Source: Escallonia rubra
Lineage: Eukaryota; Streptophyta; Magnoliopsida; Escalloniales; Escalloniaceae
Length of the DNA: 64,000 bases
Direction of reading: 5' to 3'
Assembly: GCA_033065855.1 (NCBI GenBank)
Contig: JAVXUO010000350.1
Location: 1-64,000, forward strand
Under the pieces are notes generated by a model, which made no database searches, had not been told where the DNA came from, and was given only the letters and a program-made list of their open reading frames with translations. A program made the position numbers and the translations under genes. Positions 22,911 to 64,000 of the stretch are shown here, piece by piece (within the stretch, counting starts at the first letter, position 1; each line of letters starts with the position of its first letter).

Positions 22911-23014
22911 TTGATTATATATATTTCTTTGTGTATTGATTATTGCCCGTTGTTGTTGAAAAATGCAAATTTTATTACAGGTCTGGGTAATATAAAAAAA
23001 AAATTAAAATTTTG

Positions 23015-31757: not shown

Positions 31758-32035
31758 GTAAAGCTGAGTTTTGAGAAGGAAAAATATGATTTTATTCTAT
31801 CTATATTGTCATAATTGGTAGTCCATGTTTGGGGTGATTGGATTGCTATCTATATTGTCATAAGAAGGTAATTACATAGCAATAGTGAGTTTGAGCTAGC
31901 GCTAGATCAAATACGTTGGGCAATACCAAGAGGCTCGCATCAAGTAGTGAATAATCAGATTTCTTGAACTCTCTTCTAATTATGATTTGGAAATTGTTTT
32001 CATTTTCCTTTGGTTATCTAATTATGCGCTGACAT

Positions 32036-32380: not shown

Positions 32381-32487
32381 ATAAGCTTCCTTTGCAAAGC
32401 ATCTTGCCCATATGAGTATTTCAACAAACATCCAAATGACAATTGACAACAGAGAACTAGAGAAAAACCCATTGGGGAACTTCCAAG

Positions 32488-32533
32488 TGGGAGAATTCAC
32501 AAGTTTCAGAAAAGAAACTTGTGAATTCTCCCA
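32488..32533. repeat. Perfect 20-bp hairpin, block 1 (also 38259-38304 and 44030-44075)
   Basis: The arm TGGGAGAATTCACAAGTTTC and its exact complement are separated by the 6-base loop AGAAAA. Perfect arms suggest a young inverted duplication or a junction left by an earlier rearrangement. It lies between the 171-bp duplication and the BSP fragment. Confidence 0.9.
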
Positions 32534-32809
32534 GTAATCAAACCCAGCCTTTGCAAGGATTTGATTAGTGGGTCGTTGGCTGTATTTGGTGTCAGGTAGG
32601 TTCTAATACCCATCATACGTAACTAAGATTTGTTGTCTGCTAGTTAAACATATTAATTATATGTGCTTGTAAGCAGCATAATTAGATTTTCTTTGCAGAA
32701 AATGTAAAGCTTGGTGCAATATCGGAAAACTAGTTTCAAACAATAAAATTTTACTTTAGGGTACCCTTGTATATCTCTTCTTAATCATATCCCCACAGGA
32801 GTACTACCA

Positions 32810-33200
32810 TTACACTAATAATCCCGGAGCATACTTAGCTTTGTATTCTGACCAAAGCTGATCAACTGGCTTCCCTAACAACTGAACAAAGTAATCTTCA
32901 CTATAAGCATATCTCATTTTGTTGTTCAGTGCAGCTGTGACTTCATATCCCTCATCCCACCTATCACCTTGCCCAGGTAGAGCAAAGCCAGTCCCGTTTA
33001 GTTTAGCTCTTAGGACCATGTAGTCTGCAATTTCTTCAGTCAGTGGACCCGGGGCTGTAAAGTTCCCTGACCATTAAATACATGAGTCATCTCATGGTAC
33101 ATTAGAGCCGTGAACGCCGTCCTGAGTTCATCACCTTGCATGCCTTGCAAGTACACTGCACTAATATTAATCAAGTTGTTGGAAATGTCAACAAATCCTT
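32810..33200 (-). pseudogene. Captured fragment of a plant basic secretory protein (BSP) gene, block 1
   Basis: On the minus strand the sequence reads DISNNLINISAVYLQGMQG, then ALMYHEMTHVF with the zinc-site motif HEMTH (33082-33096), and after a frame break GPLTEEIADYMVLRAKL, then PGQGDRWDEGYEVTA and LLGKPVDQLWSEYKAKY. These are hallmarks of the BSP family (NtPRp27-like secreted proteins, linked to plant defence, with a metalloprotease-like site). The N-terminal part is missing, and about 15 residues are lost between EVTA and LNNKMR compared with the family. It is a decayed host gene fragment carried antisense within intron 1 of the transposon's second gene. Antisense RNA against a host BSP gene is conceivable but unproven. 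Confidence 0.85.
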
Positions 33201-33295
33201 CAAGTACACTGCACTAAACTGTAGGGTGTGATGTATTATCTTGTTTATAATCCTCAGCACAATGTTCAATGCCTCCTTTATACAAGAAAGATAAT

Positions 33296-36200: not shown

Positions 36201-37115
36201 GTTTCAAAGGAAATAATTGCCCTTGCACGTGGTCCAAATGATATTGTGAAGAGAGGCAATGGCTATTTGATAAACGGATATAGGTTTCACGCTGAACGCC
36301 TCGAGCTAAAAAGAAAAACACAAAATAGCGGAGTGTTTGTCTCTGCTAGTACACGTGGTTATTCATCGTCTAGAGATAGAAATCCCGCAGAAGACTTATT
36401 AGAGTACTTTGGCGTTTTGGAAGATATAATTGAGCTAGATTATTTTGGAGTTGGAAAGGTCGTACTTTTTAAATGCAAATGGTACGACACTGTGAATCGA
36501 AATACAGGGATCAAAACAGATCCATATGGATTTACACTTGTTAACTCGAAGAGATTTATTTATAAAGAGGAACCATTTGTGTTGGCCTCTCAAGTGGAGC
36601 AGCTGTTCTTTGTGGATCATCCAAGGGACAGTGGTTGGCGTGTGGTTATTCGAACAAGGCCAAGAGACTTTTGTGAAGATGTGGAAGAGGAAGACAATGA
36701 ACACGAGGAGTTATCATCCCTTTCCTCAAGTGAGTCACATGTTGTTCAAGATGCATAAAATATAATAGGTGACATCACTTGGGCCAGAAATGACATTGAA
36801 GCAGAAATAGTCGAGGAACATCCAGCAAGAAGGTCCAAAAACGCACAAGCAAGGGAGCAAGCTATAGATAGAGGGACTAAAAGCCATAGACTTGACACTT
36901 CTCTAGAAAGTGGTGGGGCTAAAAAGCGAAGACTTGAAACCTTTGTAGATGACGAGGAGGAGGAAGAGGAGGAGGGAGATGAGGACGAGGACGATGAGGA
37001 CGAGGACGATGAAGAGGACGAGGATGAGGAAAAGGAGGAAGTGGCAGAGGAAGATGAAGATAAAAATGAAAATGAAAATGAAGAGGCAGAGAGTGATTCT
37101 ATGAGTAGTGATTGA
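33296..37115 (+). pseudogene. TNP2-type CACTA transposase, copy 2 (CACTA-2)
   Basis: It is the same gene as at 27525-31344, shifted by 5,771 bp, with the same exons and the same three in-frame stops (34523, 35652 and 36756). Its upstream sequence is the antisense BSP fragment of block 1 rather than a transposon promoter. An in-frame Met at 33269 adds MPPLYKKDN. Nothing else distinguishes it. Confidence 0.93.
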
Positions 37116-37314
37116 TTTGTTTTTCTGCTTGCTATTTATTTCTGTGTACTATCTCTTTCTGAAGAAAACTTCTAAATGAATCATATCTTTGTTTGTTCGT
37201 TTATTTTGTTTCTTGTAGTCTCTTAATTAAAGGTTAACTTCAATTTTTCTTTCAGTCATTATCTATTCCAGTTTTGGTTATGTTTATACGTATATTTGTG
37301 TCTATAGTGTTTCC

Positions 37315-37528
37315 ATGGCTAATAGACGGCAGCTTCGAGCACGAGTTGGTTGCAGCGCACAAGTGCCATCACGAGATTCTCCCCAGATCAACGAGCAGCA
37401 CAATGTCGAGGTACAAACTGATGCCAATGTCGCTGCGATTACCGATACACCCAACATCGAGGATGAGGCGCTTGATGCTGAGATGACCAGTCATCTTGAG
37501 GGGTCACAAAGTGACCCACCATCCATAG
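37315..37528 (+). pseudogene. Orphan exon 1 of the Transposase_24-type gene, copy 2
   Basis: Same exon, 5,771 bp downstream of the first. Its nearest proper acceptor is at 45351, about 7.8 kb away and beyond the whole of block 3. It could be an alternative first exon but is most simply a by-product of the triplication. Confidence 0.85.
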
Positions 37529-38580
37529 GTAAAGCTGAGTTTTGAGAAGGAAAAATATGATTTTATTCTATCTATATTGTCATAATTGGTAGTCCATGTT
37601 TGGGGTGATTGGATTGCTATCTATATTGTCATAAGAAGGTAATTACATAGCAATAGTGAGTTTGAGCTAGCGCTAGATCAAATACGTTGGGCAATACCAA
37701 GAGGCTCGCATCAAGTAGTGAATAATCAGATTTCTTGAACTCTCTTCTAATTATGATTTGGAAATTGTTTTCATTTTCCTTTGGTTATCTAATTATGCGC
37801 TGACATATTTGTGTATCTTGTTTATCAGTGATTTTGTATCTACCTTTAAAGGATAGTACCTTGCGGAGTCACCCTTGGAAATAAACACGCGAGTTACAGA
37901 ATTAACGGTAGCAACCAGCAATTGGGTTAAGATAATATCTTGTCTCTTTTCCCATAACCTGTGTGTTCATGCAGTAGATTTGTGTATCTTGTTTATCAGT
38001 GATTTTGTGTCTACCTTTATAGTATAGTACCCTGTGGAGTCGCCCTTGGAAAGAAACACGTAAGTTACAGAATTAACGGGTAACAACAAGCAATTGGGTT
38101 AAGATAATATTGTGTCTCTTTTCCCATAACCTGTGTGTTCATGCAGTAGATATAAGCTTCCTTTGCAAAGCATCTTGCCCATATGAGTATTTCAACAAAC
38201 ATCCAAATGACAATTGACAACAGAGAACTAGAGAAAAACCCATTGGGGAACTTCCAAGTGGGAGAATTCACAAGTTTCAGAAAAGAAACTTGTGAATTCT
38301 CCCAGTAATCAAACCCAGCCTTTGCAAGGATTTGATTAGTGGGTTGTTGGCTGTATTTGGTGTCAGGTAGGTTCTAATACCCATCATACGTAACTAAGAT
38401 TTGTTGCCTGCTAGTTAAACATATTAATTATATGTGCTTGTAAGCAGCATAATTAGATTTTCTTTGCAGAAAATGTAAAGCTTGGTGCAATATCGGAAAA
38501 CTAGTTTCAAACAATAAAATTTTACTTTAGGGTACCCTTGTATATCTCTTCTTAATCATATCCCCACAGGAGTACTACCA

Positions 38581-38971
38581 TTACACTAATAATCCCGGAG
38601 CATACTTAGCTTTGTATTCTGACCAAAGCTGATCAACTGGCTTCCCTAACAACTGAACAAAGTAATCTTCACTATAAGCATATCTCATTTTGTTGTTCAG
38701 TGCAGCTGTGACTTCATATCCCTCATCCCACCTATCACCTTGCCCAGGTAGAGCAAAGCCAGTCCCGTTTAGTTTAGCTCTTAGGACCATGTAGTCTGCA
38801 ATTTCTTCAGTCAGTGGACCCGGGGCTGTAAAGTTCCCTGACCATTAAATACATGAGTCATCTCATGGTACATTAGAGCCGTGAACGCCGTCCTGAGTTC
38901 ATCACCTTGCATGCCTTGCAAGTACACTGCACTAATATTAATCAAGTTGTTGGAAATGTCAACAAATCCTT
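38581..38971 (-). pseudogene. Captured BSP gene fragment, block 2
   Basis: Identical to the fragment at 32810-33200, including HEMTH at 38853-38867 and the same breaks. In this block, as in block 1, it ends up just upstream of the next TNP2 copy, pointing away from it. Confidence 0.85.
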
Positions 38972-39066
38972 CAAGTACACTGCACTAAACTGTAGGGTGT
39001 GATGTATTATCTTGTTTATAATCCTCAGCACAATGTTCAATGCCTCCTTTATACAAGAAAGATAAT

Positions 39067-42000
39067 ATGGACAAGGTATGGATGACGCACTCTAGGGAAA
39101 CTGATACTTATTGTGCTGGAGTCGACATGTTTTTGGATTTTGCATTTGCAAATACGGCAACAATCTTTAGAGAGATTTTGTGTCCGTGTAGAGATTGCGT
39201 TAATAGCATGTTCCGCACGTGTGAAACTGTGCAAGAACATTTAATAATAAGGGGATTTATGAGCAATTATACAGTATGGACAGTTCATGGGGAAGGCTCG
39301 TCTTCTCGTTCAAATCGCATGGAAAATGATGTAGAGCTCAACATTGGTGGTGGTGGAGCTATGCATGAAATGGTAAATGACATATTTACAAGCCGATCGG
39401 AGGAACCTTGTGTTAAAGTTGCAAACTTCTATAAATACATGAGCGATGCAGATCGACCATTATATTCGGGGTGCAAGACTGAGACAAAGCTATCATTTAT
39501 TGTGTGGTTATTTAATCTGAAATGCACCAGTAAATGGACAGACAAGTCCTTTGATTTGCTACTTGGTAAGTTAAAAGAAATAATTCCTAACGGTGAGACG
39601 TTGCCTGCCAACTTTTATGAAACAAAAAATATGATCGGTGACTTGGGATTCAGCTACGATAAGATTGACGCTTGTCCCAATGATTGTATATTGTATTGGA
39701 AGGAAGATAGCACATTGAATTCGTGCAGGGTGTGCAAAAAATCAAGGTGGAGGATGGTTCAAAGGGAGGCAGAAAAGGAAGGAGAATCTAGACCTTGTAA
39801 AGAAGGAAAAAAAATAGCTGTCAAGCAACTGCGTCATTTTCCTTTGATACCAAGACTGCAAAGGCTATATATGTCACCAAAGACGCCTGAATTAATGATA
39901 TGGCATGATAAAAAGCGTCGAAAAGACGAAAGACAACGCCATCCTGCTGACTCAGAAGCATCGAAACACTTTGATCGCTTAAATCCAGACTTTGCTTCAG
40001 ACCCTCGTAATATAAGACTCGGGTTATCAACTGATGGTATGGATCCTTTTCGCCACGGAGCAAGTCATAGCATATGGCCAGTTACCGTGGTTATTTATAA
40101 CTTGCCTCCGGGAATGTGTATGCAACAACGATTTTTCATTATGCCTTTGCTAATACCTGGTCCAACTTCCCCTGGTAATGATATTGATGTGTATCTTAGG
40201 CCGTTAATTGAGAAGCTCAAGGCGTTGTTCGATGCTGTTGAAACTTATGACGCCTTCACCAAAACTAACTTCAAGATGTGTGCAATGCTCATGTAGACTA
40301 TTAGTGACTTCCCAGCTTATGCAATGTTGGCAGGTTATAGCACGAAGGGCAAGTTGGCGTGTCCAGTATGTCAAGAAGACACTCGATCTTGTAGATTACG
40401 TGGTAAGCAATGTTATATGGCACACCGATCTTTTCTAGATCCAGATCACATATATAGACTCGACAAAAAAAAATTCAACGGGCTATGTGAGTATAGAGAA
40501 CGTTCGGTTATTCGTTCGGGATTTGATGTGCTTGAAATGGTGAGCGACATCAATGTTACGTTTGGAAAGGCTAGTAAAGCTACTGTGCCTAAGGATCCTA
40601 ACCATAACTGGAGGAAAAAAAGTATTTTTTTTGAGTTGCCATATTGGAGGTTTCTCATCTTACGCCATAATTTGGACGTAATGCACATTGAGAAGAATTT
40701 CTGTGATAATCTGCTTGGGACATTGTTGGGTATCAAAGGGAAGACAAAGGATACTCTTAAAGCTCGCTTAGACATGCAAGATATGAACATACGACAAGAA
40801 CTGCATCCAGTTGAAGTTGGTGTAGGCAAGTATAAGTTGCCTGCTGCACGTTTCACAATGTCTAAGGACGAGAAAAAGGATTTTCTCCATGTGTTGAAGA
40901 ATGTCAAGGTTCCTGATGGCTACTCGTCTAATATTAGCCGTTGCGTACTTGAAAAAGATGGAAAGATTTCAGGTCTTAAGAGTCATGATTGCCATATCCT
41001 AATGCATCAAATTCTTCCGATAGCAATAAGAGGGGTTTTGCCAGAGGATGTTTGCTCTGCTGTAGTTGACATATGTCAATTCTTTAAAGAATTGTGCTCT
41101 AAAAATTACCGAGTAGAAGACTTTGAACGACTTAATAGGAAGATTGTATTGACACTTTGTCATCTTGAGATGATATTTCCACAGGCTTTCTTCGATATAA
41201 TGGTCCATTTGCCTGTTCATCTTGCCGAGGAGGCAAGGATCGCTGGACCTGTACAGTATCGCCAAATGTATCCATTTGAAAGGTAAAATACTTTTCATTA
41301 TTTTTTATTTGATATTATATGACACTTAGAGGCTAATGTAGTTTATATTACATGATTATAGATACATGTTTAAGTTAAAAGGCTATATTCGATGCAAGAG
41401 CCGCCCCGAAGGGTCGATTGCATAAGGGTTATTAGCGGAAGAGTGTGTAAGATTTTGCTCAATGTACTTAGAAGGTTCTCATCCAGCATGGACTCGACCG
41501 GGAAGGAATGAAGATGGATATGTTGAAGAAGTGACCAGAAGTTTGTACGTTTTTTGTTGCAAAGGTAGATTTTTAGGTACTCCTTCTATTAGTCATCTAG
41601 ATGTGAAGGTTATAGAGATGGCACATCGCTACGTGTTGTTTAACTGTGATGAGTTAGAAGAGTATCGAAGGTAAGCATTTTTCTCAAAGTATTGTTAATA
41701 TATTTATTTTTGGCATATGGATAATATGTTAATAATATACCATGTCATTGCAGCCTATGTCAAAGTGTGTGCACAATGATGCTAGGAAGACGTAGAAAGA
41801 AACTTACGCCAAGGGAAGTTGATCATTGCTTAAAAAATGAGTTTTCCAAATGGTTTAGTGGTCACGTGAGTTCTCTTTATGCATTCAAGATTAGTTTTCT
41901 GAATTTGCATTTATGAGTTATTTCTTATTACTTGATTTGCAATTGCACAGGTAAAAACTTTAAGAGCTGGGGTTTCAAAGGAAATAATTGCCCTTGCACG

Positions 42001-42886
42001 TGGTCCAAATGATATTGTGAAGAGAGGCAATGGCTATTTGATAAACGGATATAGGTTTCACGCTGAACGCCTCGAGCTAAAAAGAAAAACACAAAATAGC
42101 GGAGTGTTTGTCTCTGCTAGTACACGTGGTTATTCATCGTCTAGAGATAGAAATCCCGCAGAAGACTTATTAGAGTACTTTGGCGTTTTGGAAGATATAA
42201 TTGAGCTAGATTATTTTGGAGTTGGAAAGGTCGTACTTTTTAAATGCAAATGGTACGACACTGTGAATCGAAATACAGGGATCAAAACAGATCCATATGG
42301 ATTTACACTTGTTAACTCGAAGAGATTTATTTATAAAGAGGAACCATTTGTGTTGGCCTCTCAAGTGGAGCAGCTGTTCTTTGTGGATCATCCAAGGGAC
42401 AGTGGTTGGCGTGTGGTTATTCGAACAAGGCCAAGAGACTTTTGTGAAGATGTGGAAGAGGAAGACAATGAACACGAGGAGTTATCATCCCTTTCCTCAA
42501 GTGAGTCACATGTTGTTCAAGATGCATAAAATATAATAGGTGACATCACTTGGGCCAGAAATGACATTGAAGCAGAAATAGTCGAGGAACATCCAGCAAG
42601 AAGGTCCAAAAACGCACAAGCAAGGGAGCAAGCTATAGATAGAGGGACTAAAAGCCATAGACTTGACACTTCTCTAGAAAGTGGTGGGGCTAAAAAGCGA
42701 AGACTTGAAACCTTTGTAGATGACGAGGAGGAGGAAGAGGAGGAGGGAGATGAGGACGAGGACGATGAGGACGAGGACGATGAAGAGGACGAGGATGAGG
42801 AAAAGGAGGAAGTGGCAGAGGAAGATGAAGATAAAAATGAAAATGAAAATGAAGAGGCAGAGAGTGATTCTATGAGTAGTGATTGA
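39067..42886 (+). pseudogene. TNP2-type CACTA transposase, copy 3 (CACTA-2)
   Basis: It is the same gene again, shifted by 11,542 bp from copy 1, with in-frame stops at 40294, 41423 and 42527. Since all three copies share all three stops, the lesions came before the triplication. It is the copy directly upstream of the intact second gene. Confidence 0.93.
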
Positions 42887-43085
42887 TTTGTTTTTCTGCT
42901 TGCTATTTATTTCTGTGTACTATCTATTTCTGAAGAAAACTTCTAAATGAATCATATCTTTGTTTGTTCGTTTATTTTGTTTCTTGTAGTCTCTTAATTA
43001 AAGGTTAACTTCAATTTTTCTTTCAGTCATTATCTATTCCAGTTTTGGTTATGTTTATACGTATATTTGTGTCTATAGTGTTTCC

Positions 43086-46000
43086 ATGGCTAATAGACGG
43101 CAGCTTCGAGCACGAGTTGGTTGCAGCGCACAAGTGCCATCACGAGATTCTCCCCAGATCAACGAGCAGCACAATGTCGAGGTACAAACTGATGCCAATG
43201 TCGCTGCGATTACCGATACACCCAACATCGAGGATGAGGCGCTTGATGCTGAGATGACCAGTCATCTTGAGGGGTCACAAAGTGACCCACCATCCATAGG
43301 TAAAGCTGAGTTTTGAGAAGGAAAAATATGATTTTATTCTATCTATATTGTCATAATTGGTAGTCCATGTTTGGGGTGATTGGATTGCTATCTATATTGT
43401 CATAAGAAGGTAATTACATAGCAATAGTGAGTTTGAGCTAGCGCTAGATCAAATACGTTGGGCAATACCAAGAGGCTCGCATCAAGTAGTGAATAATCAG
43501 ATTTCTTGAACTCTCTTCTAATTATGATTTGGAAATTGTTTTCATTTTCCTTTGGTTATCTAATTATGCGCTGACATATTTGTGTATCTTGTTTATCAGT
43601 GATTTTGTATCTACCTTTAAAGGATAGTACCTTGCGGAGTCACCCTTGGAAATAAACACGCGAGTTACAGAATTAACGGTAGCAACCAGCAATTGGGTTA
43701 AGATAATATCTTGTCTCTTTTCCCATAACCTGTGTGTTCATGCAGTAGATTTGTGTATCTTGTTTATCAGTGATTTTGTGTCTACCTTTATAATATAGTA
43801 CCCTGTGGAGTCGCCCTTGGAAAGAAACACGTAAGTTACAGAATTAACGGGTAACAACAAGCAATTGGGTTAAGATAATATTGTGTCTCTTTTCCCATAA
43901 CCTGTGTGTTCATGCAGTAGATATAAGCTTCCTTTGCAAAGCATCTTGCCCATATGAGTATTTCAACAAACATCCAAATGACAATTGACAACAGAGAACT
44001 AGAGAAAAACCCATTGGGGAACTTCCAAGTGGGAGAATTCACAAGTTTCAGAAAAGAAACTTGTGAATTCTCCCAGTAATCAAACCCTGCCTTTGCAAGG
44101 ATTTGATTAGTGGGTTGTTGGCTGTATTTGGTGTCAGGTAGGTTCTAATACCCATCATACGTAACTAAGATTTGTTGCCTGCTAGTTAAACATATTAATT
44201 ATATGTGCTTGTAAGCAGCATAATTAGATTTTCTTTGCAGAAAATGTAAAGCTTGGTGCAATATCGGAAAACTAGTTTCAAACAATAAAATTTTACTTTA
44301 GGGTACCCTTGTATATCTCTTCTTAATCATATCCCCACAGGAGTACTACCATTACACTAATAATCCCGGAGCATACTTAGCTTTGTATTCTGACCAAAGC
44401 TGATCAACTGGCTTCCCTAACAACTGAACAAAGTAATCTTCACTATAAGCATATCTCATTTTGTTGTTCAGTGCAGCTGTGACTTCATATCCCTCATCCC
44501 ACCTATCACCTTGCCCAGGTAGAGCAAAGCCAGTCCCGTTTAGTTTAGCTCTTAGGACCATGTAGTCTGCAATTTCTTCAGTCAGTGGACCCGGGGCTGT
44601 AAAGTTCCCTGACCATTAAATACATGAGTCATCTCATGGTACATTAGAGCCGTGAACGCCGTCCTGAGTTCATCACCTTGCATGCCTTGCAAGTACACTG
44701 CACTAATATTAATCAAGTTGTTGGAAATGTCAACAAATCCTTCAAGTACACTGCACTAAACTGTAGGGTGTGATGTATTATCTTGTTTATAATCCTCAGC
44801 ACAATGTTCAATGCCTCCTCATTCTTGTACTTTTAAGTCCTGCATGCCATGCTAGTAGCTTAAACTGAATCAGTCCCCTGTTTCATTTTTCTCTGTTCAT
44901 GAACTGCAACCCCCAGTTTGTTGCTGATTATTCGATCTCACAGGATGTTGAAGCTTATCAATCATATGTACCTACGCTGGGTCGACCTTTAAACTTCTGA
45001 AGACACACACACACGATGAAAACTAGTTTATTATCATTTCTCTTTCTATGCATTTGAACCCAAAAATGAAATCTATATCTCAACCATCCTATTCGTATTT
45101 TAGTATACTAATTGCCATAGCTATCCTGTGAGAACTCAGTTATGATGTTAAATTACCAGCACCTCTGAAAATTTAAACTTTAAGAGAATGGCCTAACAGA
45201 GTCTGCCATGCTTAAGAATGTTTGTGACCTTATGCCTCAGCTGTTATACTCACTTATGCTTTGCTCATCAACAAGATCTCATGCTGCCAGAAAACCTGAT
45301 TGGACTACAAATTGTTTTATTGATTTCATGGGACATGTTCTTTTCTTGCAGGTTCTAGTTCATCAAAAAAGCGAGGCCCCACTAGAGGGGCTGAAATATG
45401 GGTGAGGGAGACGCAAAAATATGTAGGGTATGACAATTGGGGTCATGCTAATACCGGTGCATTTCATGAGCTTGGTACCTTTATAGGTTGTGCGGCACGT
45501 TCGAGCAAGCTGTTACCTATTACTTACACCAAGTGGGCTGATGTTCCAGAGGAGGACAAAGAAAAGGCTTGGGAGGAGATCGAAGTATTATTAAGTTATG
45601 CATTTTCCTAAATTTATCCGAAGCTATTTGAAATTTTTTGATGCTATTGTACTCGTGGTCACAGAAGAGATTTACAACGGATCATCCTCTTGCTAAAACT
45701 GCTATAATGCGCACTCTTAACACCCGTTGGAAAGATTGGAAGTGCTCGCTAAAAAGGAAATTCTTCAAGCCGGATGATATACCAGCTTCAAATGCACTTG
45801 TTGCAATTGAAAAAATGGCAGATTGGCTGCAGTGGCAAACCTTGGCGAGTTATTGGCAGCGTGAAGAAGTTATAGTATCCACTAAACTTACATTTATTAA
45901 CATAATTCATGTTTTTATTTGATACCTACTAATTAATGTTCTTTAAATTGCAGAAGGAGGCAAAGTTAAACAGCAAAAACGCGACGAGCATCAATGCAAT

Positions 46001-49053: not shown

Positions 49054-52000
49054 CTTGGTTCAAATAGTCAAGGTCGTGTATCATGTAAATCTTAAAATTT
49101 AAAGACAAAAAGGGAGAATCCTGTTAAGAAATTAACAAAAGTTGCTCCCATCGTTTTCAATACTTACTCAGCACACCTCCAAGCAACTTTGGTAGTGGCA
49201 AGACAGGAATCAAAGCATCCTTGTCACTTCCAGAGATTGGATTGGAAACTCCTCTTAGATGCGAGCCAAGATAGGTAAACATTTCAAGACAGGCTCCGAT
49301 CGTTTTCTTTTTTGATGAATGGCAAAAACATTTCATCACTAAAAAAAATTTGTAAAGTCGTCCCGGTTGTTTGGCCATTAGCATATTTGTTTGTGTGCAT
49401 AAACGTTTTTGGTCAGCTTTGGTCCATTTTCTTAATACTAGTTGTGATGCACGTGCGTTGCACGTGATTAGTTTCAAAAGCTGTTTCGAGACCAATGAGA
49501 TAACATATTGTCTTTATCAAATTATTTGAGGGAGGGACAACTAAAATTATCATGTAAATAAACAAATTGTGTCTGAAATTACTGTCAGAGACTTTGATTT
49601 TGCACTCTCGATGAGTATAAGTGTACAAGTTAGACCTCAGTCACCAAACTATGTGGATAAAAATTAAAACATGTACAAGTTCTTGGTTCAAATAGTCAAG
49701 GTCGTCTATCATGTAAATCTTAAAGTTTTAAGACATAAAGGGAGAATCCTGTTAAGAAATTAACAAAATTTGCTCCCATCGTTTTCAATACTTACTCAGC
49801 ACACCTCCAAGCAACTTTGGTAGTGGCAAGACAGGAATCAAAGCATCCTTGTCACTTCCAATGAGATTGGATTGGAAACTCCTCTTAGATGCGAGCCAAG
49901 ATAGGTAAACATTTCAAGACAGGCTCCGATCATTTTCTTTTTTGATGAATGGCAAAAACATTTCATCACTAAAAAAAATTTGTAAAGCCGTCCCGGTTGT
50001 TTGGCCATTAGCATATTTGTTTGTGTGCATAAACGTTTTTGGTCAGCTTTGGTCCATTTTCTTAATACTAGTTGTGATGCACGTGCGTTGCACGTGATTA
50101 GTTTCAAAAGCTGTTTCGAGACCAATGAGATAACATATTGTCTTTATCAAATTATTTGAGGGAGGGACAACTAAAATTATCATGTAACTAACCACACTTT
50201 GTGTCCGAATTTACTGTCAGAGACTTTGATTTTGCACTCTCGATGAGTATAAGTGTACAAGTTAGACCTCAGTCACCAAACTATGTGGATAAAAATTAAA
50301 ACATGTACAAGTTCTTGGTTCAAATAGTCAATGTCGTCTATCATGTAAATCTTAAAGTTTTAAGACATAAAGGGAGAATCCTGTTAAGAAATTAACAAAA
50401 GTTGCTCCCATCGTTTTCAATACTTACTCAGCACACCTCCAAGCAACTTTGGTAGTGGCAAGACAGGAATCAAAGCATCCTTGTCACTTCCAATGAGATT
50501 GGATTGGAAACTCCTCTTAGATGCGAGCCAAGATAGGTAAACATTTCAAGACAGGCTCCGATCGTTTTCTTTTTTGATGAATGGCAAAAACATTTCATCA
50601 CTAAAAAAAATTTGTAAAGCCGTCCCGGTTTTTTTGGCCATTAGCATATTTGTTTGTGTGCATAAACGTTTTTGGTCAGCTTTGGTCCATTTTCTTAATA
50701 CTAGTTGTGATGCACGTGCGTTGCACGTGATTAGTTTCAAAAGCTGTTTCGAGACCAATGAGATAACATATTGTCTTTATCAAATTATTTGAGGGAGGGA
50801 CAACTAAAATTATCATGTAACTAACCACACTTTGTGTCCGAATTTACTGTCAGAGACTTTGATTTTGCACTCTCGATGAGTATAAGTGTACAAGTTAGAC
50901 CTCAGTCACCAAACTATGTGGATAAAAATTAAAACATGTACAAGTTCTTGGTTCAAATAGTCAAGGTCGTGTATCATGTAAATCTTAAAGTTTTAATACA
51001 TAAAGGGAGAATCCTGTTAAGAAATTAACAAAAGTTGCTCCCATCGTTTTCAATACTTACTCAGCACACCTCCAAGCAACTTTGGTAGTGGCAAGACAGG
51101 AATCAAAGCATCCTTGTCACTTCCAGAGATTGGATTGGAAACTCCTCTTAGATGCGAGCCAAGATAGGTAAACATTTCAAGACAGGCTCCGATCGTTTTC
51201 TTTTTTGATGAATGGCAAAAACATTTCATCACTAAAAAAAATTTGTAAAGCCGTCCCGGTTGTTTGGCCATTAGCATATTTGTTTGTGTGCATAAACGTT
51301 TTTGGTCAGCTTTGGTCCATTTTCTTAATACTAGTTGTGATGCACGTGCGTTGCACGTGATTAGTTTCAAAAGCTGTTTCGAGACCAATGAGATAACATA
51401 TTGTCTTTATCAAATTATTTGAGGGAGGGACAACTAAAATTATCATGTAAATAAACAACTTGTGTCTGAAATTACTGTCAGAGACTTTGATTTTGCACTC
51501 TCGATGAGTATAAGTGTACAAGTTAGACCTCAGTCACCAAACTATGTGGATAAAAATTAAAACATGTACAAGTTCTTGGTTCAAATAGTCAAGGTCGTCT
51601 ATCATGTAAATCTTAAAGTTTTAAGACATAAAGGGAGAATCCTGTTAAGAAATTAACAAAATTTGCTCCCATCGTTTTCAATACTTACTCAGCACACCTC
51701 CAAGCAACTTTGGTAGTGGCAAGACAGGAATCAAAGCATCCTTGTCACTTCCAATGAGATTGGATTGGAAACTCCTCTTAGATGCGAGCCAAGATAGGTA
51801 AACATTTCAAGACAGGCTCCGATCATTTTCTTTTTTGATGAATGGCAAAAACATTTCATCACTAAAAAAAATTTGTAAAGCCGTCCCGGTTGTTTGGCCA
51901 TTAGCATATTTGTTTGTGTGCATAAACGTTTTTGGTCAGCTTTGGTCCATTTTCTTAATACTAGTTGTGATGCACGTGCGTTGCACGTGATTAGTTTCAA

Positions 52001-54736
52001 AAGCTGTTTCGAGACCAATGAGATAACATATTGTCTTTATCAAATTATTTGAGGGAGGGACAACTAAAATTATCATGTAACTAACCACACTTTGTGTCCG
52101 AATTTACTGTCAGAGACTTTGATTTTGCACTCTCGATGAGTATAAGTGTACAAGTTAGACCTCAGTCACCAAACTATGTGGATAAAAATTAAAACATGTA
52201 CAAGTTCTTGGTTCAAATAGTCAATGTCGTCTATCATGTAAATCTTAAAGTTTTAAGACATAAAGGGAGAATCCTGTTAAGAAATTAACAAAAGTTGCTC
52301 CCATCGTTTTCAATACTTACTCAGCACACCTCCAAGCAACTTTGGTAGTGGCAAGACAGGAATCAAAGCATCCTTGTCACTTCCAATGAGATTGGATTGG
52401 AAACTCCTCTTAGATGCGAGCCAAGATAGGTAAACATTTCAAGACAGGCTCCGATCGTTTTCTTTTTTGATGAATGGCAAAAACATTTCATCACTAAAAA
52501 AAATTTGTAAAGCCGTCCCGGTTTTTTTGGCCATTAGCATATTTGTTTGTGTGCATAAACGTTTTTGGTCAGCTTTGGTCCATTTTCTTAATACTAGTTG
52601 TGATGCACGTGCGTTGCACGTGATTAGTTTCAAAAGCTGTTTCGAGACCAATGAGATAACATATTGTCTTTATCAAATTATTTGAGGGAGGGACAACTAA
52701 AATTATCATGTAACTAACCACACTTTGTGTCCGAATTTACTGTCAGAGACTTTGATTTTGCACTCTCGATGAGTATAAGTGTACAAGTTAGACCTCAGTC
52801 ACCAAACTATGTGGATAAAAATTAAAACATGTACAAGTTCTTGGTTCAAATAGTCAAGGTCGTGTATCATGTAAATCTTAAAGTTTTAATACATAAAGGG
52901 AGAATCCTGTTAAGAAATTAACAAAAGTTGCTCCCATCGTTTTCAATACTTACTCAGCACACCTCCAAGCAACTTTGGTAGTGGCAAGACAGGAATCAAA
53001 GCATCCTTGTCACTTCCAATGAGATTGGATTGGAAACTCCTCTTAGATGCGAGCCAAGATAGGTAAACATTTCAAGACAGGCTCCGATCGTTTTCTTTTT
53101 TGATGAATGGCAAAAACATTTCATCACTAAAAAAAATTTGTAAAGCCGTCCCGGTTGTTTGGCCATTAGCATATTTGTTTGTGTGCATAAACGTTTTTGG
53201 TCAGCTTTGGTCCATTTTCTTAATACTAGTTGTGATGCACGTGCGTTGCACGTGATTAGTTTCAAAAGCTGTTTCGAGACCAATGAGATAACATATTGTC
53301 TTTATCAAATTATTTGAGGGAGGGACAACTAAAATTATCATGTAACTAACCACACTTTGTGTCCGAATTTACTGTCAGAGACTTTGATTTTGCACTCTCG
53401 ATGAGTATAAGTGTACAAGTTAGACCTCAGTCACCAAACTATGTGGATAAAAATTAAAACATGTACAAGTTCTTGGTTCAAATAGTCAAGGTCGTCTATC
53501 ATGTAAATCTTAAAGTTTTAAGACATAAAGGGAGAATCCTGTTAAGAAATTAACAAAATTTGCTCCCATCGTTTTCAATACTTACTCAGCACACCTCCAA
53601 GCAACTTTGGTAGTGGCAAGACAGGAATCAAAGCATCCTTGTCACTTCCAATGAGATTGGATTGGAAACTCCTCTTAGATGCGAGCCAAGATAGGTAAAC
53701 ATTTCAAGACAGGCTCCGATCATTTTCTTTTTTGATGAATGGCAAAAACATTTCATCACTAAAAAAAATTTGTAAAGCCGTCCCGGTTGTTTGGCCATTA
53801 GCATATTTGTTTGTGTGCATAAACGTTTTTGGTCAGCTTTGGTCCATTTTCTTAATACTAGTTGTGATGCACGTGCGTTGCACGTGATTAGTTTCAAAAG
53901 CTGTTTCGAGACCAATGAGATAACATATTGTCTTTATCAAATTATTTGAGGGAGGGACAACTAAAATTATCATGTAACTAACCACACTTTGTGTCCGAAT
54001 TTACTGTCAGAGACTTTGATTTTGCACTCTCGATGAGTATAAGTGTACAAGTTAGACCTCAGTCACCAAACTATGTGGATAAAAATTAAAACATGTACAA
54101 GTTCTTGGTTCAAATAGTCAATGTCGTCTATCATGTAAATCTTAAAGTTTTAAGACATAAAGGGAGAATCCTGTTAAGAAATTAACAAAAGTTGCTCCCA
54201 TCGTTTTCAATACTTACTCAGCACACCTCCAAGCAACTTTGGTAGTGGCAAGACAGGAATCAAAGCATCCTTGTCACTTCCAATGAGATTGGATTGGAAA
54301 CTCCTCTTAGATGCGAGCCAAGATAGGTAAACATTTCAAGACAGGCTCCGATCGTTTTCTTTTTTGATGAATGGCAAAAACATTTCATCACTAAAAAAAA
54401 TTTGTAAAGCCGTCCCGGTTTTTTTGGCCATTAGCATATTTGTTTGTGTGCATAAACGTTTTTGGTCAGCTTTGGTCCATTTTCTTAATACTAGTTGTGA
54501 TGCACGTGCGTTGCACGTGATTAGTTTCAAAAGCTGTTTCGAGACCAATGAGATAACATATTGTCTTTATCAAATTATTTGAGGGAGGGACAACTAAAAT
54601 TATCATGTAACTAACCACACTTTGTGTCCGAATTTACTGTCAGAGACTTTGATTTTGCACTCTCGATGAGTATAAGTGTACAAGTTAGACCTCAGTCACC
54701 AAACTATGTGGATAAAAATTAAAACATGTACAAGTT
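49054..54736. repeat. Three copies of a three-unit higher-order repeat (satellite edge)
   Basis: Unit types A, B and C recur in order three times (49054-50946, 50947-52839 and 52840-54736; lengths 1,893, 1,893 and 1,897). A has GTCGTGTATC, and its second to fourth copies (A2-A4) have TTTTAATACAT. B has AACAAAATTTGC and CGATCATTTTC. C has TCAATGTCGTC and a longer T run (GGTTTTTTTGG). The first two A units also share a 2-base loss at CTTCCAGAGATT and a diverged tail. A fourth A unit (54737-55368) leads into the uniform part. Confidence 0.92.
49437..49466 (-). mobile_element. Helitron-like 3' terminus, first of about 24 copies
   Basis: Read on the minus strand: a hairpin CACGTGC-AAC-GCACGTG (arms 49460-49466 and 49450-49456), then CATCACAA and CTAG followed by T. 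This is the plan of Helitron 3' ends (short hairpin, then CTRR with a T behind it). It recurs in every unit. A matching TC start on the same strand is not evident, so only this end is claimed. Confidence 0.7.
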
Positions 54737-55368
54737 CTTGGTTCAAATAGTCAAGGTCGTGTATCATGTAAATCTTAAAGTTTTAATACATAAAGGGAGA
54801 ATCCTGTTAAGAAATTAACAAAAGTTGCTCCCATCGTTTTCAATACTTACTCAGCACACCTCCAAGCAACTTTGGTAGTGGCAAGACAGGAATCAAAGCA
54901 TCCTTGTCACTTCCAATGAGATTGGATTGGAAACTCCTCTTAGATGCGAGCCAAGATAGGTAAACATTTCAAGACAGGCTCCGATCGTTTTCTTTTTTGA
55001 TGAATGGCAAAAACATTTCATCACTAAAAAAAATTTGTAAAGCCGTCCCGGTTGTTTGGCCATTAGCATATTTGTTTGTGTGCATAAACGTTTTTGGTCA
55101 GCTTTGGTCCATTTTCTTAATACTAGTTGTGATGCACGTGCGTTGCACGTGATTAGTTTCAAAAGCTGTTTCGAGACCAATGAGATAACATATTGTCTTT
55201 ATCAAATTATTTGAGGGAGGGACAACTAAAATTATCATGTAACTAACCACACTTTGTGTCCGAATTTACTGTCAGAGACTTTGATTTTGCACTCTCGATG
55301 AGTATAAGTGTACAAGTTAGACCTCAGTCACCAAACTATGTGGATAAAAATTAAAACATGTACAAGTT

Positions 55369-58300
55369 CTTGGTTCAAATAGTCAAGGTCGTCTATCATG
55401 TAAATCTTAAAGTTTTAAGACATAAAGGGAGAATCCTGTTAAGAAATTAACAAAAGTTGCTCCCATCGTTTTCAATACTTACTCAGCACACCTCCAAGCA
55501 ACTTTGGTAGTGGCAAGACAGGAATCAAAGCATCCTTGTCACTTCCAATGAGATTGGATTGGAAACTCCTCTTAGATGCGAGCCAAGATAGGTAAACATT
55601 TCAAGACAGGCTCCGATCGTTTTCTTTTTTGATGAATGGCAAAAACATTTCATCACTAAAAAAAATTTGTAAAGCCGTCCCGGTTGTTTGGCCATTAGCA
55701 TATTTGTTTGTGTGCATAAACGTTTTTGGTCAGCTTTGGTCCATTTTCTTAATACTAGTTGTGATGCACGTGCGTTGCACGTGATTAGTTTCAAAAGCTG
55801 TTTCGAGACCAATGAGATAACATATTGTCTTTATCAAATTATTTGAGGGAGGGACAACTAAAATTATCATGTAACTAACCACACTTTGTGTCCGAATTTA
55901 CTGTCAGAGACTTTGATTTTGCACTCTCGATGAGTATAAGTGTACAAGTTAGACCTCAGTCACCAAACTATGTGGATAAAAATTAAAACATGTACAAGTT
56001 CTTGGTTCAAATAGTCAAGGTCGTCTATCATGTAAATCTTAAAGTTTTAAGACATAAAGGGAGAATCCTGTTAAGAAATTAACAAAAGTTGCTCCCATCG
56101 TTTTCAATACTTACTCAGCACACCTCCAAGCAACTTTGGTAGTGGCAAGACAGGAATCAAAGCATCCTTGTCACTTCCAATGAGATTGGATTGGAAACTC
56201 CTCTTAGATGCGAGCCAAGATAGGTAAACATTTCAAGACAGGCTCCGATCGTTTTCTTTTTTGATGAATGGCAAAAACATTTCATCACTAAAAAAAATTT
56301 GTAAAGCCGTCCCGGTTGTTTGGCCATTAGCATATTTGTTTGTGTGCATAAACGTTTTTGGTCAGCTTTGGTCCATTTTCTTAATACTAGTTGTGATGCA
56401 CGTGCGTTGCACGTGATTAGTTTCAAAAGCTGTTTCGAGACCAATGAGATAACATATTGTCTTTATCAAATTATTTGAGGGAGGGACAACTAAAATTATC
56501 ATGTAACTAACCACACTTTGTGTCCGAATTTACTGTCAGAGACTTTGATTTTGCACTCTCGATGAGTATAAGTGTACAAGTTAGACCTCAGTCACCAAAC
56601 TATGTGGATAAAAATTAAAACATGTACAAGTTCTTGGTTCAAATAGTCAAGGTCGTCTATCATGTAAATCTTAAAGTTTTAAGACATAAAGGGAGAATCC
56701 TGTTAAGAAATTAACAAAAGTTGCTCCCATCGTTTTCAATACTTACTCAGCACACCTCCAAGCAACTTTGGTAGTGGCAAGACAGGAATCAAAGCATCCT
56801 TGTCACTTCCAATGAGATTGGATTGGAAACTCCTCTTAGATGCGAGCCAAGATAGGTAAACATTTCAAGACAGGCTCCGATCGTTTTCTTTTTTGATGAA
56901 TGGCAAAAACATTTCATCACTAAAAAAAATTTGTAAAGCCGTCCCGGTTGTTTGGCCATTAGCATATTTGTTTGTGTGCATAAACGTTTTTGGTCAGCTT
57001 TGGTCCATTTTCTTAATACTAGTTGTGATGCACGTGCGTTGCACGTGATTAGTTTCAAAAGCTGTTTCGAGACCAATGAGATAACATATTGTCTTTATCA
57101 AATTATTTGAGGGAGGGACAACTAAAATTATCATGTAACTAACCACACTTTGTGTCCGAATTTACTGTCAGAGACTTTGATTTTGCACTCTCGATGAGTA
57201 TAAGTGTACAAGTTAGACCTCAGTCACCAAACTATGTGGATAAAAATTAAAACATGTACAAGTTCTTGGTTCAAATAGTCAAGGTCGTCTATCATGTAAA
57301 TCTTAAAGTTTTAAGACATAAAGGGAGAATCCTGTTAAGAAATTAACAAAAGTTGCTCCCATCGTTTTCAATACTTACTCAGCACACCTCCAAGCAACTT
57401 TGGTAGTGGCAAGACAGGAATCAAAGCATCCTTGTCACTTCCAATGAGATTGGATTGGAAACTCCTCTTAGATGCGAGCCAAGATAGGTAAACATTTCAA
57501 GACAGGCTCCGATCGTTTTCTTTTTTGATGAATGGCAAAAACATTTCATCACTAAAAAAAATTTGTAAAGCCGTCCCGGTTGTTTGGCCATTAGCATATT
57601 TGTTTGTGTGCATAAACGTTTTTGGTCAGCTTTGGTCCATTTTCTTAATACTAGTTGTGATGCACGTGCGTTGCACGTGATTAGTTTCAAAAGCTGTTTC
57701 GAGACCAATGAGATAACATATTGTCTTTATCAAATTATTTGAGGGAGGGACAACTAAAATTATCATGTAACTAACCACACTTTGTGTCCGAATTTACTGT
57801 CAGAGACTTTGATTTTGCACTCTCGATGAGTATAAGTGTACAAGTTAGACCTCAGTCACCAAACTATGTGGATAAAAATTAAAACATGTACAAGTTCTTG
57901 GTTCAAATAGTCAAGGTCGTCTATCATGTAAATCTTAAAGTTTTAAGACATAAAGGGAGAATCCTGTTAAGAAATTAACAAAAGTTGCTCCCATCGTTTT
58001 CAATACTTACTCAGCACACCTCCAAGCAACTTTGGTAGTGGCAAGACAGGAATCAAAGCATCCTTGTCACTTCCAATGAGATTGGATTGGAAACTCCTCT
58101 TAGATGCGAGCCAAGATAGGTAAACATTTCAAGACAGGCTCCGATCGTTTTCTTTTTTGATGAATGGCAAAAACATTTCATCACTAAAAAAAATTTGTAA
58201 AGCCGTCCCGGTTGTTTGGCCATTAGCATATTTGTTTGTGTGCATAAACGTTTTTGGTCAGCTTTGGTCCATTTTCTTAATACTAGTTGTGATGCACGTG

Positions 58301-61300
58301 CGTTGCACGTGATTAGTTTCAAAAGCTGTTTCGAGACCAATGAGATAACATATTGTCTTTATCAAATTATTTGAGGGAGGGACAACTAAAATTATCATGT
58401 AACTAACCACACTTTGTGTCCGAATTTACTGTCAGAGACTTTGATTTTGCACTCTCGATGAGTATAAGTGTACAAGTTAGACCTCAGTCACCAAACTATG
58501 TGGATAAAAATTAAAACATGTACAAGTTCTTGGTTCAAATAGTCAAGGTCGTCTATCATGTAAATCTTAAAGTTTTAAGACATAAAGGGAGAATCCTGTT
58601 AAGAAATTAACAAAAGTTGCTCCCATCGTTTTCAATACTTACTCAGCACACCTCCAAGCAACTTTGGTAGTGGCAAGACAGGAATCAAAGCATCCTTGTC
58701 ACTTCCAATGAGATTGGATTGGAAACTCCTCTTAGATGCGAGCCAAGATAGGTAAACATTTCAAGACAGGCTCCGATCGTTTTCTTTTTTGATGAATGGC
58801 AAAAACATTTCATCACTAAAAAAAATTTGTAAAGCCGTCCCGGTTGTTTGGCCATTAGCATATTTGTTTGTGTGCATAAACGTTTTTGGTCAGCTTTGGT
58901 CCATTTTCTTAATACTAGTTGTGATGCACGTGCGTTGCACGTGATTAGTTTCAAAAGCTGTTTCGAGACCAATGAGATAACATATTGTCTTTATCAAATT
59001 ATTTGAGGGAGGGACAACTAAAATTATCATGTAACTAACCACACTTTGTGTCCGAATTTACTGTCAGAGACTTTGATTTTGCACTCTCGATGAGTATAAG
59101 TGTACAAGTTAGACCTCAGTCACCAAACTATGTGGATAAAAATTAAAACATGTACAAGTTCTTGGTTCAAATAGTCAAGGTCGTCTATCATGTAAATCTT
59201 AAAGTTTTAAGACATAAAGGGAGAATCCTGTTAAGAAATTAACAAAAGTTGCTCCCATCGTTTTCAATACTTACTCAGCACACCTCCAAGCAACTTTGGT
59301 AGTGGCAAGACAGGAATCAAAGCATCCTTGTCACTTCCAATGAGATTGGATTGGAAACTCCTCTTAGATGCGAGCCAAGATAGGTAAACATTTCAAGACA
59401 GGCTCCGATCGTTTTCTTTTTTGATGAATGGCAAAAACATTTCATCACTAAAAAAAATTTGTAAAGCCGTCCCGGTTGTTTGGCCATTAGCATATTTGTT
59501 TGTGTGCATAAACGTTTTTGGTCAGCTTTGGTCCATTTTCTTAATACTAGTTGTGATGCACGTGCGTTGCACGTGATTAGTTTCAAAAGCTGTTTCGAGA
59601 CCAATGAGATAACATATTGTCTTTATCAAATTATTTGAGGGAGGGACAACTAAAATTATCATGTAACTAACCACACTTTGTGTCCGAATTTACTGTCAGA
59701 GACTTTGATTTTGCACTCTCGATGAGTATAAGTGTACAAGTTAGACCTCAGTCACCAAACTATGTGGATAAAAATTAAAACATGTACAAGTTCTTGGTTC
59801 AAATAGTCAAGGTCGTCTATCATGTAAATCTTAAAGTTTTAAGACATAAAGGGAGAATCCTGTTAAGAAATTAACAAAAGTTGCTCCCATCGTTTTCAAT
59901 ACTTACTCAGCACACCTCCAAGCAACTTTGGTAGTGGCAAGACAGGAATCAAAGCATCCTTGTCACTTCCAATGAGATTGGATTGGAAACTCCTCTTAGA
60001 TGCGAGCCAAGATAGGTAAACATTTCAAGACAGGCTCCGATCGTTTTCTTTTTTGATGAATGGCAAAAACATTTCATCACTAAAAAAAATTTGTAAAGCC
60101 GTCCCGGTTGTTTGGCCATTAGCATATTTGTTTGTGTGCATAAACGTTTTTGGTCAGCTTTGGTCCATTTTCTTAATACTAGTTGTGATGCACGTGCGTT
60201 GCACGTGATTAGTTTCAAAAGCTGTTTCGAGACCAATGAGATAACATATTGTCTTTATCAAATTATTTGAGGGAGGGACAACTAAAATTATCATGTAACT
60301 AACCACACTTTGTGTCCGAATTTACTGTCAGAGACTTTGATTTTGCACTCTCGATGAGTATAAGTGTACAAGTTAGACCTCAGTCACCAAACTATGTGGA
60401 TAAAAATTAAAACATGTACAAGTTCTTGGTTCAAATAGTCAAGGTCGTCTATCATGTAAATCTTAAAGTTTTAAGACATAAAGGGAGAATCCTGTTAAGA
60501 AATTAACAAAAGTTGCTCCCATCGTTTTCAATACTTACTCAGCACACCTCCAAGCAACTTTGGTAGTGGCAAGACAGGAATCAAAGCATCCTTGTCACTT
60601 CCAATGAGATTGGATTGGAAACTCCTCTTAGATGCGAGCCAAGATAGGTAAACATTTCAAGACAGGCTCCGATCGTTTTCTTTTTTGATGAATGGCAAAA
60701 ACATTTCATCACTAAAAAAAATTTGTAAAGCCGTCCCGGTTGTTTGGCCATTAGCATATTTGTTTGTGTGCATAAACGTTTTTGGTCAGCTTTGGTCCAT
60801 TTTCTTAATACTAGTTGTGATGCACGTGCGTTGCACGTGATTAGTTTCAAAAGCTGTTTCGAGACCAATGAGATAACATATTGTCTTTATCAAATTATTT
60901 GAGGGAGGGACAACTAAAATTATCATGTAACTAACCACACTTTGTGTCCGAATTTACTGTCAGAGACTTTGATTTTGCACTCTCGATGAGTATAAGTGTA
61001 CAAGTTAGACCTCAGTCACCAAACTATGTGGATAAAAATTAAAACATGTACAAGTTCTTGGTTCAAATAGTCAAGGTCGTCTATCATGTAAATCTTAAAG
61101 TTTTAAGACATAAAGGGAGAATCCTGTTAAGAAATTAACAAAAGTTGCTCCCATCGTTTTCAATACTTACTCAGCACACCTCCAAGCAACTTTGGTAGTG
61201 GCAAGACAGGAATCAAAGCATCCTTGTCACTTCCAATGAGATTGGATTGGAAACTCCTCTTAGATGCGAGCCAAGATAGGTAAACATTTCAAGACAGGCT

Positions 61301-64000
61301 CCGATCGTTTTCTTTTTTGATGAATGGCAAAAACATTTCATCACTAAAAAAAATTTGTAAAGCCGTCCCGGTTGTTTGGCCATTAGCATATTTGTTTGTG
61401 TGCATAAACGTTTTTGGTCAGCTTTGGTCCATTTTCTTAATACTAGTTGTGATGCACGTGCGTTGCACGTGATTAGTTTCAAAAGCTGTTTCGAGACCAA
61501 TGAGATAACATATTGTCTTTATCAAATTATTTGAGGGAGGGACAACTAAAATTATCATGTAACTAACCACACTTTGTGTCCGAATTTACTGTCAGAGACT
61601 TTGATTTTGCACTCTCGATGAGTATAAGTGTACAAGTTAGACCTCAGTCACCAAACTATGTGGATAAAAATTAAAACATGTACAAGTTCTTGGTTCAAAT
61701 AGTCAAGGTCGTCTATCATGTAAATCTTAAAGTTTTAAGACATAAAGGGAGAATCCTGTTAAGAAATTAACAAAAGTTGCTCCCATCGTTTTCAATACTT
61801 ACTCAGCACACCTCCAAGCAACTTTGGTAGTGGCAAGACAGGAATCAAAGCATCCTTGTCACTTCCAATGAGATTGGATTGGAAACTCCTCTTAGATGCG
61901 AGCCAAGATAGGTAAACATTTCAAGACAGGCTCCGATCGTTTTCTTTTTTGATGAATGGCAAAAACATTTCATCACTAAAAAAAATTTGTAAAGCCGTCC
62001 CGGTTGTTTGGCCATTAGCATATTTGTTTGTGTGCATAAACGTTTTTGGTCAGCTTTGGTCCATTTTCTTAATACTAGTTGTGATGCACGTGCGTTGCAC
62101 GTGATTAGTTTCAAAAGCTGTTTCGAGACCAATGAGATAACATATTGTCTTTATCAAATTATTTGAGGGAGGGACAACTAAAATTATCATGTAACTAACC
62201 ACACTTTGTGTCCGAATTTACTGTCAGAGACTTTGATTTTGCACTCTCGATGAGTATAAGTGTACAAGTTAGACCTCAGTCACCAAACTATGTGGATAAA
62301 AATTAAAACATGTACAAGTTCTTGGTTCAAATAGTCAAGGTCGTCTATCATGTAAATCTTAAAGTTTTAAGACATAAAGGGAGAATCCTGTTAAGAAATT
62401 AACAAAAGTTGCTCCCATCGTTTTCAATACTTACTCAGCACACCTCCAAGCAACTTTGGTAGTGGCAAGACAGGAATCAAAGCATCCTTGTCACTTCCAA
62501 TGAGATTGGATTGGAAACTCCTCTTAGATGCGAGCCAAGATAGGTAAACATTTCAAGACAGGCTCCGATCGTTTTCTTTTTTGATGAATGGCAAAAACAT
62601 TTCATCACTAAAAAAAATTTGTAAAGCCGTCCCGGTTGTTTGGCCATTAGCATATTTGTTTGTGTGCATAAACGTTTTTGGTCAGCTTTGGTCCATTTTC
62701 TTAATACTAGTTGTGATGCACGTGCGTTGCACGTGATTAGTTTCAAAAGCTGTTTCGAGACCAATGAGATAACATATTGTCTTTATCAAATTATTTGAGG
62801 GAGGGACAACTAAAATTATCATGTAACTAACCACACTTTGTGTCCGAATTTACTGTCAGAGACTTTGATTTTGCACTCTCGATGAGTATAAGTGTACAAG
62901 TTAGACCTCAGTCACCAAACTATGTGGATAAAAATTAAAACATGTACAAGTTCTTGGTTCAAATAGTCAAGGTCGTCTATCATGTAAATCTTAAAGTTTT
63001 AAGACATAAAGGGAGAATCCTGTTAAGAAATTAACAAAAGTTGCTCCCATCGTTTTCAATACTTACTCAGCACACCTCCAAGCAACTTTGGTAGTGGCAA
63101 GACAGGAATCAAAGCATCCTTGTCACTTCCAATGAGATTGGATTGGAAACTCCTCTTAGATGCGAGCCAAGATAGGTAAACATTTCAAGACAGGCTCCGA
63201 TCGTTTTCTTTTTTGATGAATGGCAAAAACATTTCATCACTAAAAAAAATTTGTAAAGCCGTCCCGGTTGTTTGGCCATTAGCATATTTGTTTGTGTGCA
63301 TAAACGTTTTTGGTCAGCTTTGGTCCATTTTCTTAATACTAGTTGTGATGCACGTGCGTTGCACGTGATTAGTTTCAAAAGCTGTTTCGAGACCAATGAG
63401 ATAACATATTGTCTTTATCAAATTATTTGAGGGAGGGACAACTAAAATTATCATGTAACTAACCACACTTTGTGTCCGAATTTACTGTCAGAGACTTTGA
63501 TTTTGCACTCTCGATGAGTATAAGTGTACAAGTTAGACCTCAGTCACCAAACTATGTGGATAAAAATTAAAACATGTACAAGTTCTTGGTTCAAATAGTC
63601 AAGGTCGTCTATCATGTAAATCTTAAAGTTTTAAGACATAAAGGGAGAATCCTGTTAAGAAATTAACAAAAGTTGCTCCCATCGTTTTCAATACTTACTC
63701 AGCACACCTCCAAGCAACTTTGGTAGTGGCAAGACAGGAATCAAAGCATCCTTGTCACTTCCAATGAGATTGGATTGGAAACTCCTCTTAGATGCGAGCC
63801 AAGATAGGTAAACATTTCAAGACAGGCTCCGATCGTTTTCTTTTTTGATGAATGGCAAAAACATTTCATCACTAAAAAAAATTTGTAAAGCCGTCCCGGT
63901 TGTTTGGCCATTAGCATATTTGTTTGTGTGCATAAACGTTTTTGGTCAGCTTTGGTCCATTTTCTTAATACTAGTTGTGATGCACGTGCGTTGCACGTGA
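55369..64000. repeat. Uniform core of the satellite
   Basis: Thirteen full units and part of another follow with exactly 632 bp spacing, and I noticed no difference between them. They combine the common states of all marker sites (GTCGTCTATC, AACAAAAGTTGC, CGATCGTTTTC, GGTTGTTTGG). Such uniformity points to recent amplification or ongoing homogenisation; an assembly repeat-collapse or expansion is also possible. Confidence 0.92.

Follow-up and report, generated by a model that had tools for sequence, protein, structure and literature searches.

The right-hand end of the window (the whole stretch of 64,000 nucleotides that was analysed, taken from contig JAVXUO010000350.1 of Escallonia rubra) is occupied by a tandem array of 632-bp units, each of which likely holds a Helitron 3' end, as judged from the motif it carries. 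We consider it probable that this satellite co-amplified the tail of a Helitron together with its flank as a passenger, and that exchange processes of the host did the multiplying.

Organization of the tandem array

The features of the array are listed in Table 1. A partial unit of 383 bp forms its left end, 23 complete units of 630 to 633 bp follow, and of the next one 31 bp are present, where the end of the window cuts the array at its right. A 30-base anchor, consisting of ACTAGT, the spacer and the hairpin described below, was found in 24 exact copies, the first at 49437 and the last at 63970, with anchor-to-anchor distances of 630, 633, 630, 630, 633, 632, 632 and 633 bp, followed by fifteen distances of 632 bp. 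Outside the array the anchor is absent from the whole window, even if 5 substitutions (plus strand) or 6 substitutions (minus strand) are allowed. The array was overlooked by a TRF run, because the longest period of this run (500) was shorter than the unit.

Alignment of the 23 complete units unveiled seven distinct sequences and 16 variable columns out of 633. The variants are arranged as an A-B-C higher-order repeat followed by an identical core. Unit 7 (at 53225) shows the right-hand A markers and is missing a cluster of seven left-hand A markers, and was therefore assigned as a mosaic of the A-type and the core-type. The left partial unit was compared by eye, outside of the alignment: of the two C-type markers it has one, it shows the same two-base gap as unit 3, and it carries a few private changes. 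With its long head-to-tail arrangement, its near-identical units and their concerted evolution the array is satellite DNA.

Table 1 Features of the satellite array; the strand is that of the Helitron-type 3' end.
Feature	Position	Strand	Basis
Tandem satellite array	49054–64000	−	Anchors and their spacing, unit alignment, blastn for the left edge
Left-edge array sequence past CTAG	49054–49436	−	98.2% against the consensus over about 385 columns
Units 1–9, three-unit higher-order repeat A-B-C, three times	49437–55121	−	Variant table
Helitron-type 3' terminus CTAGT (ACTAG on the plus strand), first unit; 23 more anchors	49437–49441	−	24 of 24 anchors
8-base spacer CATCACAA between hairpin and CTAGT, first unit	49442–49449	−	Sequence
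Subterminal hairpin CACGTGC-AAC-GCACGTG, first unit, including the HelA core GCAACGCACG	49450–49466	−	Sequence and fold
Units 10–23, 14 units of 632 bp, 100% identical	55122–63969	−	Unit alignment

Repeating blocks of variants, mosaic units and identical runs are the usual mark of exchange and conversion in satellites. The threefold A-B-C block, the mosaic unit 7 and the identical core fit exchange or conversion with a recent expansion. Units 10 to 23 show zero differences over 8,848 bases, which bounds their divergence at 0.00034 per site for a star tree. At a rate of 1.3 × 10−8 per site per year for grasses, this bound corresponds to about 26,000 years, provided that the assembly is right and that no conversion has reset the clock. 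The satellite is apparently young.

Blastn with the doubled consensus placed the left edge of the array at 49054, on the minus strand 383 bp beyond CTAG. Evidently, an edge this far beyond the supposed terminus is not a Helitron end. At 24996–25016, 20 of 21 bases equal positions 226–246 of the satellite consensus and adjoin the phase of the left edge (E 0.004); this similarity is probably due to chance.

Hairpin and CTAGT terminus

On the minus strand all 24 anchors contain a perfect hairpin with 7-bp arms and a 3-base loop, followed by 8 bases, CTAGT and then ATTAAG, as the initial annotation had described for every unit. The CTRR-type terminus (CTAG) and the T following it are likewise present in 24 of 24. 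Folded as DNA on its own, the 39-nt end of the first unit adopts exactly this hairpin at −7.5 kcal/mol, a value equalled by none of 200 shuffles; the fold of 64 nt is less striking (z −2.07, 7 of 200 shuffles equally good). Among 2000 dinucleotide-shuffled units, none had a perfect arm of 7 bp or more together with spacer and CTAGT, and two had the looser CTRRT form. Furthermore, when the remaining 49 kb of the window were shuffled 60 times, the generic signature occurred on average 0.03 times (CTAGT) and 0.18 times (CTRRT). The real sequence of these 49 kb contains no CTAGT-type match and four CTRRT-type matches, which represent two independent loci, one of them in a triplicated repeat.

Selection on the hairpin was considered and rejected. 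Just 16 of 633 columns vary, so the invariance of the hairpin from unit to unit is no sign of selection; the chance that a stretch of 35 columns avoids all 16 variable columns is 0.40. A hairpin alone is also a weak criterion for a Helitron end, since a strong 3' hairpin set apart only 9 of 35 maize Helitrons in the account of PMC2575219.

Comparison with published 3' patterns

According to PMC2267711, Helitrons carry a palindrome of 16–20 bp located 10–15 bp upstream of the 3' terminus. The 17-nt hairpin of the unit agrees with this rule if the distance is taken to the end of CTAG, 12 bases (8 + 4) after it. The unit furthermore contains the ten-base core GCAACGCACG of HelA (GCA[AT]CGCACG) exactly, followed by 10 bases and CTAGT, a distance which is one base off the published maize spacing. 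In a relaxed version of the published patterns, chosen after the sequence had been seen, the HelA core with CTAGT at 8–11 bases was found 24 times in the array, 0 times in the other 49 kb and in 0 of 20,000 shuffled units.

The 3' pattern of Du et al. 2008 is given in PMC2267711 as CG N3-5 AA N3-5 CG N9 CTAGT, and the strict helA 3' end of Dong et al. 2011 in PMC3288121 as CCGT.GCA[AT]CGCACG[GA]{2}.{7}CTAGT. The high-quality pattern of Du et al. and the loose and strict helA patterns of Dong et al. each matched 0 of 24 anchors. The first of these matches only with its spacer widened to 8–11, a form that also picks up 35 of 20,000 shuffles and one further locus, which is triplicated. The medium pattern of HelitronFinder matched 24 of 24 anchors. 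Among the 20,000 shuffles, however, 1,931 matched as well, and the remaining 49 kb gave 24 matches (plus strand 11, minus strand 13); with shuffles and the rest of the window matching this often, it carries little weight. For the other published 3' patterns (helB loose, helA pseudo-terminus) no match was found in the window. A Helitron 3' end within the unit is thus supported by the HelA core and CTAGT at a spacing one base off, with the strict patterns unmatched.

Search for a 5' end, dispersed copies and coding content

Four published maize 5' patterns (HelitronFinder; helA loose and strict; helB loose) gave 0 matches in the array. Those of HelA and HelitronFinder had none in the window on either strand, and the three matches of the loose helB pattern all lie in the other 49 kb. 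The consensus unit carries twelve ATC sites on its minus strand, and a degenerate Helitron 5' start is possible among them. CTAG is followed by TATTAAG and not by TC in 24 of 24 anchors, which confirms an earlier observation that no new TC start follows the terminus. As a candidate for a CTRR-TC junction we considered CTAATC just before the hairpin, the sole case on the minus strand of the consensus; it was rejected, because no hairpin precedes it and its occurrence is near chance, about 0.6 per unit strand being expected if equal base frequencies are assumed. The hallmarks of a Helitron concatemer, i.e. CTRR joined to TC and an array edge at the element end, are absent, the edge inspected being the visible left one.

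The initial annotation had named the absence of dispersed elements with this end as a refuting result; in the 49 kb outside the array, neither the anchor search nor blastn found a second copy of the unit or of its 3' end. In the collections viral_contigs and genome_contigs the unit-specific 3'-end patterns matched 0 stretches, and the maize HelA pattern matched 0 in viral_contigs; these collections are non-plant and have no bearing on the host genome. As no dispersed relative was seen, the Helitron ancestry rests on the resemblance of the motif. A literature search for a 632-bp or tandem Helitron satellite in plants returned none, and an earlier description may exist.

With respect to coding content, visual inspection gave one exon-like candidate, a stop-free frame of 118 aa (49157–49513, minus strand) with a GTAAGT near its end. 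Neither Pfam nor NCBIfam gave a match to it up to E 10, and PDB gave none; a 46-aa piece of it had one PDB match at E 1.8. A frame of this length arises in 26 of 500 shuffles. Frames of at least 110 aa occur at just two places of the array, and the maximum in the consensus is 101 aa. A captured gene is not claimed. Rfam (at gathering scores) and ARAGORN returned nothing over the window.

Other repeats in the window

Three head-to-tail copies of a 5771-bp repeat, which differ at only 5 sites, span 27505–44819. The first copy was scanned and contains pieces of a tnp2/DUF4218 (CACTA) transposase. Around the copies a putative CACTA element extends from 24155 (CACTACAAGAAA) to 48428 (TTTCTTGTAGTG), with 24 of 30 bases alike at its ends and a possible AAA target duplication, so that the copies look like an internal tandem triplication within one CACTA element. 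Inside of this putative element a 100-bp inverted repeat was found at 25533–25632 and 27191–27290 (99% identity, 1.6 kb apart). A second CACTA-type segment of about 4.2 kb is present as a direct duplication at 14153–18352 and 19118–23319 (91% identity). Further to the left, degenerate TAATTAACCC-like tandem repeats with several periods cover 11014–11651, and 9019–10920 holds repeated TCGGACACGTGTCCGG-like 21-bp units as well as repeat copies of 84–98%. A CACTA-type pair of ends at 9534 and 10496–10507 is alike in 25 of 30 bases and is flanked by different triplets. A MULE match near the array is weak and below the cutoff. Along with the HelA-like end and the tnp2 matches, it suggests plant DNA.

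Origin of the array

For the origin of the array we propose the following sequence of events. A non-autonomous HelA-type Helitron, or just its tail, would once have occupied the locus, its 3' end lying on the minus strand. A stretch of 632 bp, comprising the tail and its 3' flank, would later have been tandemised, a step for which no Helitron enzyme would be required. Unequal exchange, gene conversion or the reinsertion of excised circles would then have enlarged the array and made its units uniform, and the Helitron end would have been carried along within each monomer. Thereby we infer the Helitron ancestry of the motif, the shares of element and flank in the unit, the order of the events and the mechanism of exchange. 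On these counts, intact terminators without recognisable starts are the opposite of what is described for many plant Helitron arrays, for maize helAs with several 3' ends and for Helraiser (see below), and fit a multiplication driven by the host. A single bypass of the 3' end at the origin of the array is possible, and the initial duplication could have been made by a Helitron circle.

A construction of the whole array by Helitron rolling circle, in which the 3' end would have been bypassed, tail and flank captured in a circle, and head-to-tail copies from repeated rounds inserted together, is in our view unlikely. Such a bypass is known from Helraiser, which makes circles and captured flanking sequence in about 11.7% of the events of the intact element (PMC4778049), and tandem arrays of truncated plant Helitrons have been reported, attributed to Xiong et al. 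2016 by PMC12628747, PMC5148889 and PMC5876387. According to PMC4778049, however, Helraiser requires its 5' end, the 3' end being dispensable at a cost, and no published maize 5' pattern occurs in our array. Many of the reported plant arrays contain several 5' ends and one 3' end, which PMC12628747 attributes to a circle without terminator; this is the reverse of the situation found here, where 24 consecutive terminators are intact and the visible edge does not coincide with CTAG. The same observations bear on the initial annotation, which had suggested that the satellite originated from failed or repeated Helitron termination: the left edge is out of register with CTAG, maize 5' patterns are missing from the array, TC follows none of the 24 CTAG, and the intact terminators are accompanied by variants that fit ordinary satellite exchange. 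Of its reading the Helitron 3' end was retained and the origin by Helitron termination was not.

It is quite unlikely that the motif is no Helitron end, and instead two G-box palindromes (CACGTG) 5 bases apart beside a chance CTAGT. CACGTG is its own reverse complement, and a close pair of it therefore always makes a hairpin. Such a pair is present in each unit (48 CACGTG in the array), and the failure of the published strict Helitron patterns speaks for this explanation as well. In the other 49 kb CACGTG was counted 18 times, compared to 7 predicted by composition; 12 of the 18 belong to the 5771-bp repeat, where four sites are each present in triplicate. The HelA core, however, is matched by the bases that separate and flank the palindromes, the spacing to CTAGT agrees within one base, and this combination was reached in none of the 20,000 shuffles. 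As the match runs through the loop, a HelA-type Helitron tail is clearly more likely than a G-box pair on the sequence at hand.

Very unlikely is also a read-through concatemer, for which a circle of tail and flank would have been replicated repeatedly past its own intact terminator with repetition of the 3' ends; if true, it would be the mirror image of those plant arrays which repeat 5' ends. That the copy number and the identity of units 10–23 are partly an artefact of the assembly, the real array being shorter, longer or more varied, is suggested by 14 identical 632-bp units and by the low variation (5 sites) of the 5771-bp tandem triplicate next to the array, but is highly improbable given the orderly higher-order repeat with variants in the left part and the fact that a young array, as bounded above, would be identical too.

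In the co-amplification of a Helitron tail by host exchange, which we prefer, each monomer of a young satellite would transport a transposon tail. Finding a Helitron end within satellite DNA is by itself no proof that Helitrons built the array. Furthermore, Helitrons in the vicinity could use the multiplied intact 3' terminators as additional stop sites, and such arrays could make end-finding programs over-count elements.

Comparison with known systems

In analogy to the 3' ends of maize HelA described in PMC2267711 and PMC3288121, the satellite unit exhibits a hairpin with a central AA, the HelA core and CTAGT about 10 bases downstream. It differs from them in the outer stem (CAC...GTG instead of CCGT...CG[GA]), in the distance from CG to CTAGT (10 bases instead of 9) and in the lack of a 5' end recognised by the maize patterns, and the strict patterns fail. 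In a sample of 100 maize helAs bearing more than one 3' end, 99 lacked an intact CTAG at the internal end (PMC3288121), unlike the satellite, whose terminators are intact in 24 of 24. With the arrays that truncated Helitrons form in plants (Xiong, Dooner and Du 2016, as related by citing papers) the satellite shares the head-to-tail arrangement of Helitron-derived sequence; unlike in many of these, a 3' end is present in every unit and a recognisable 5' end in none. No difference was established to the transposon-derived satellites described in PMC12628747 and PMC9659126, with which the array has in common that the monomer includes part of a transposon and that the array shows signs of homogenisation.
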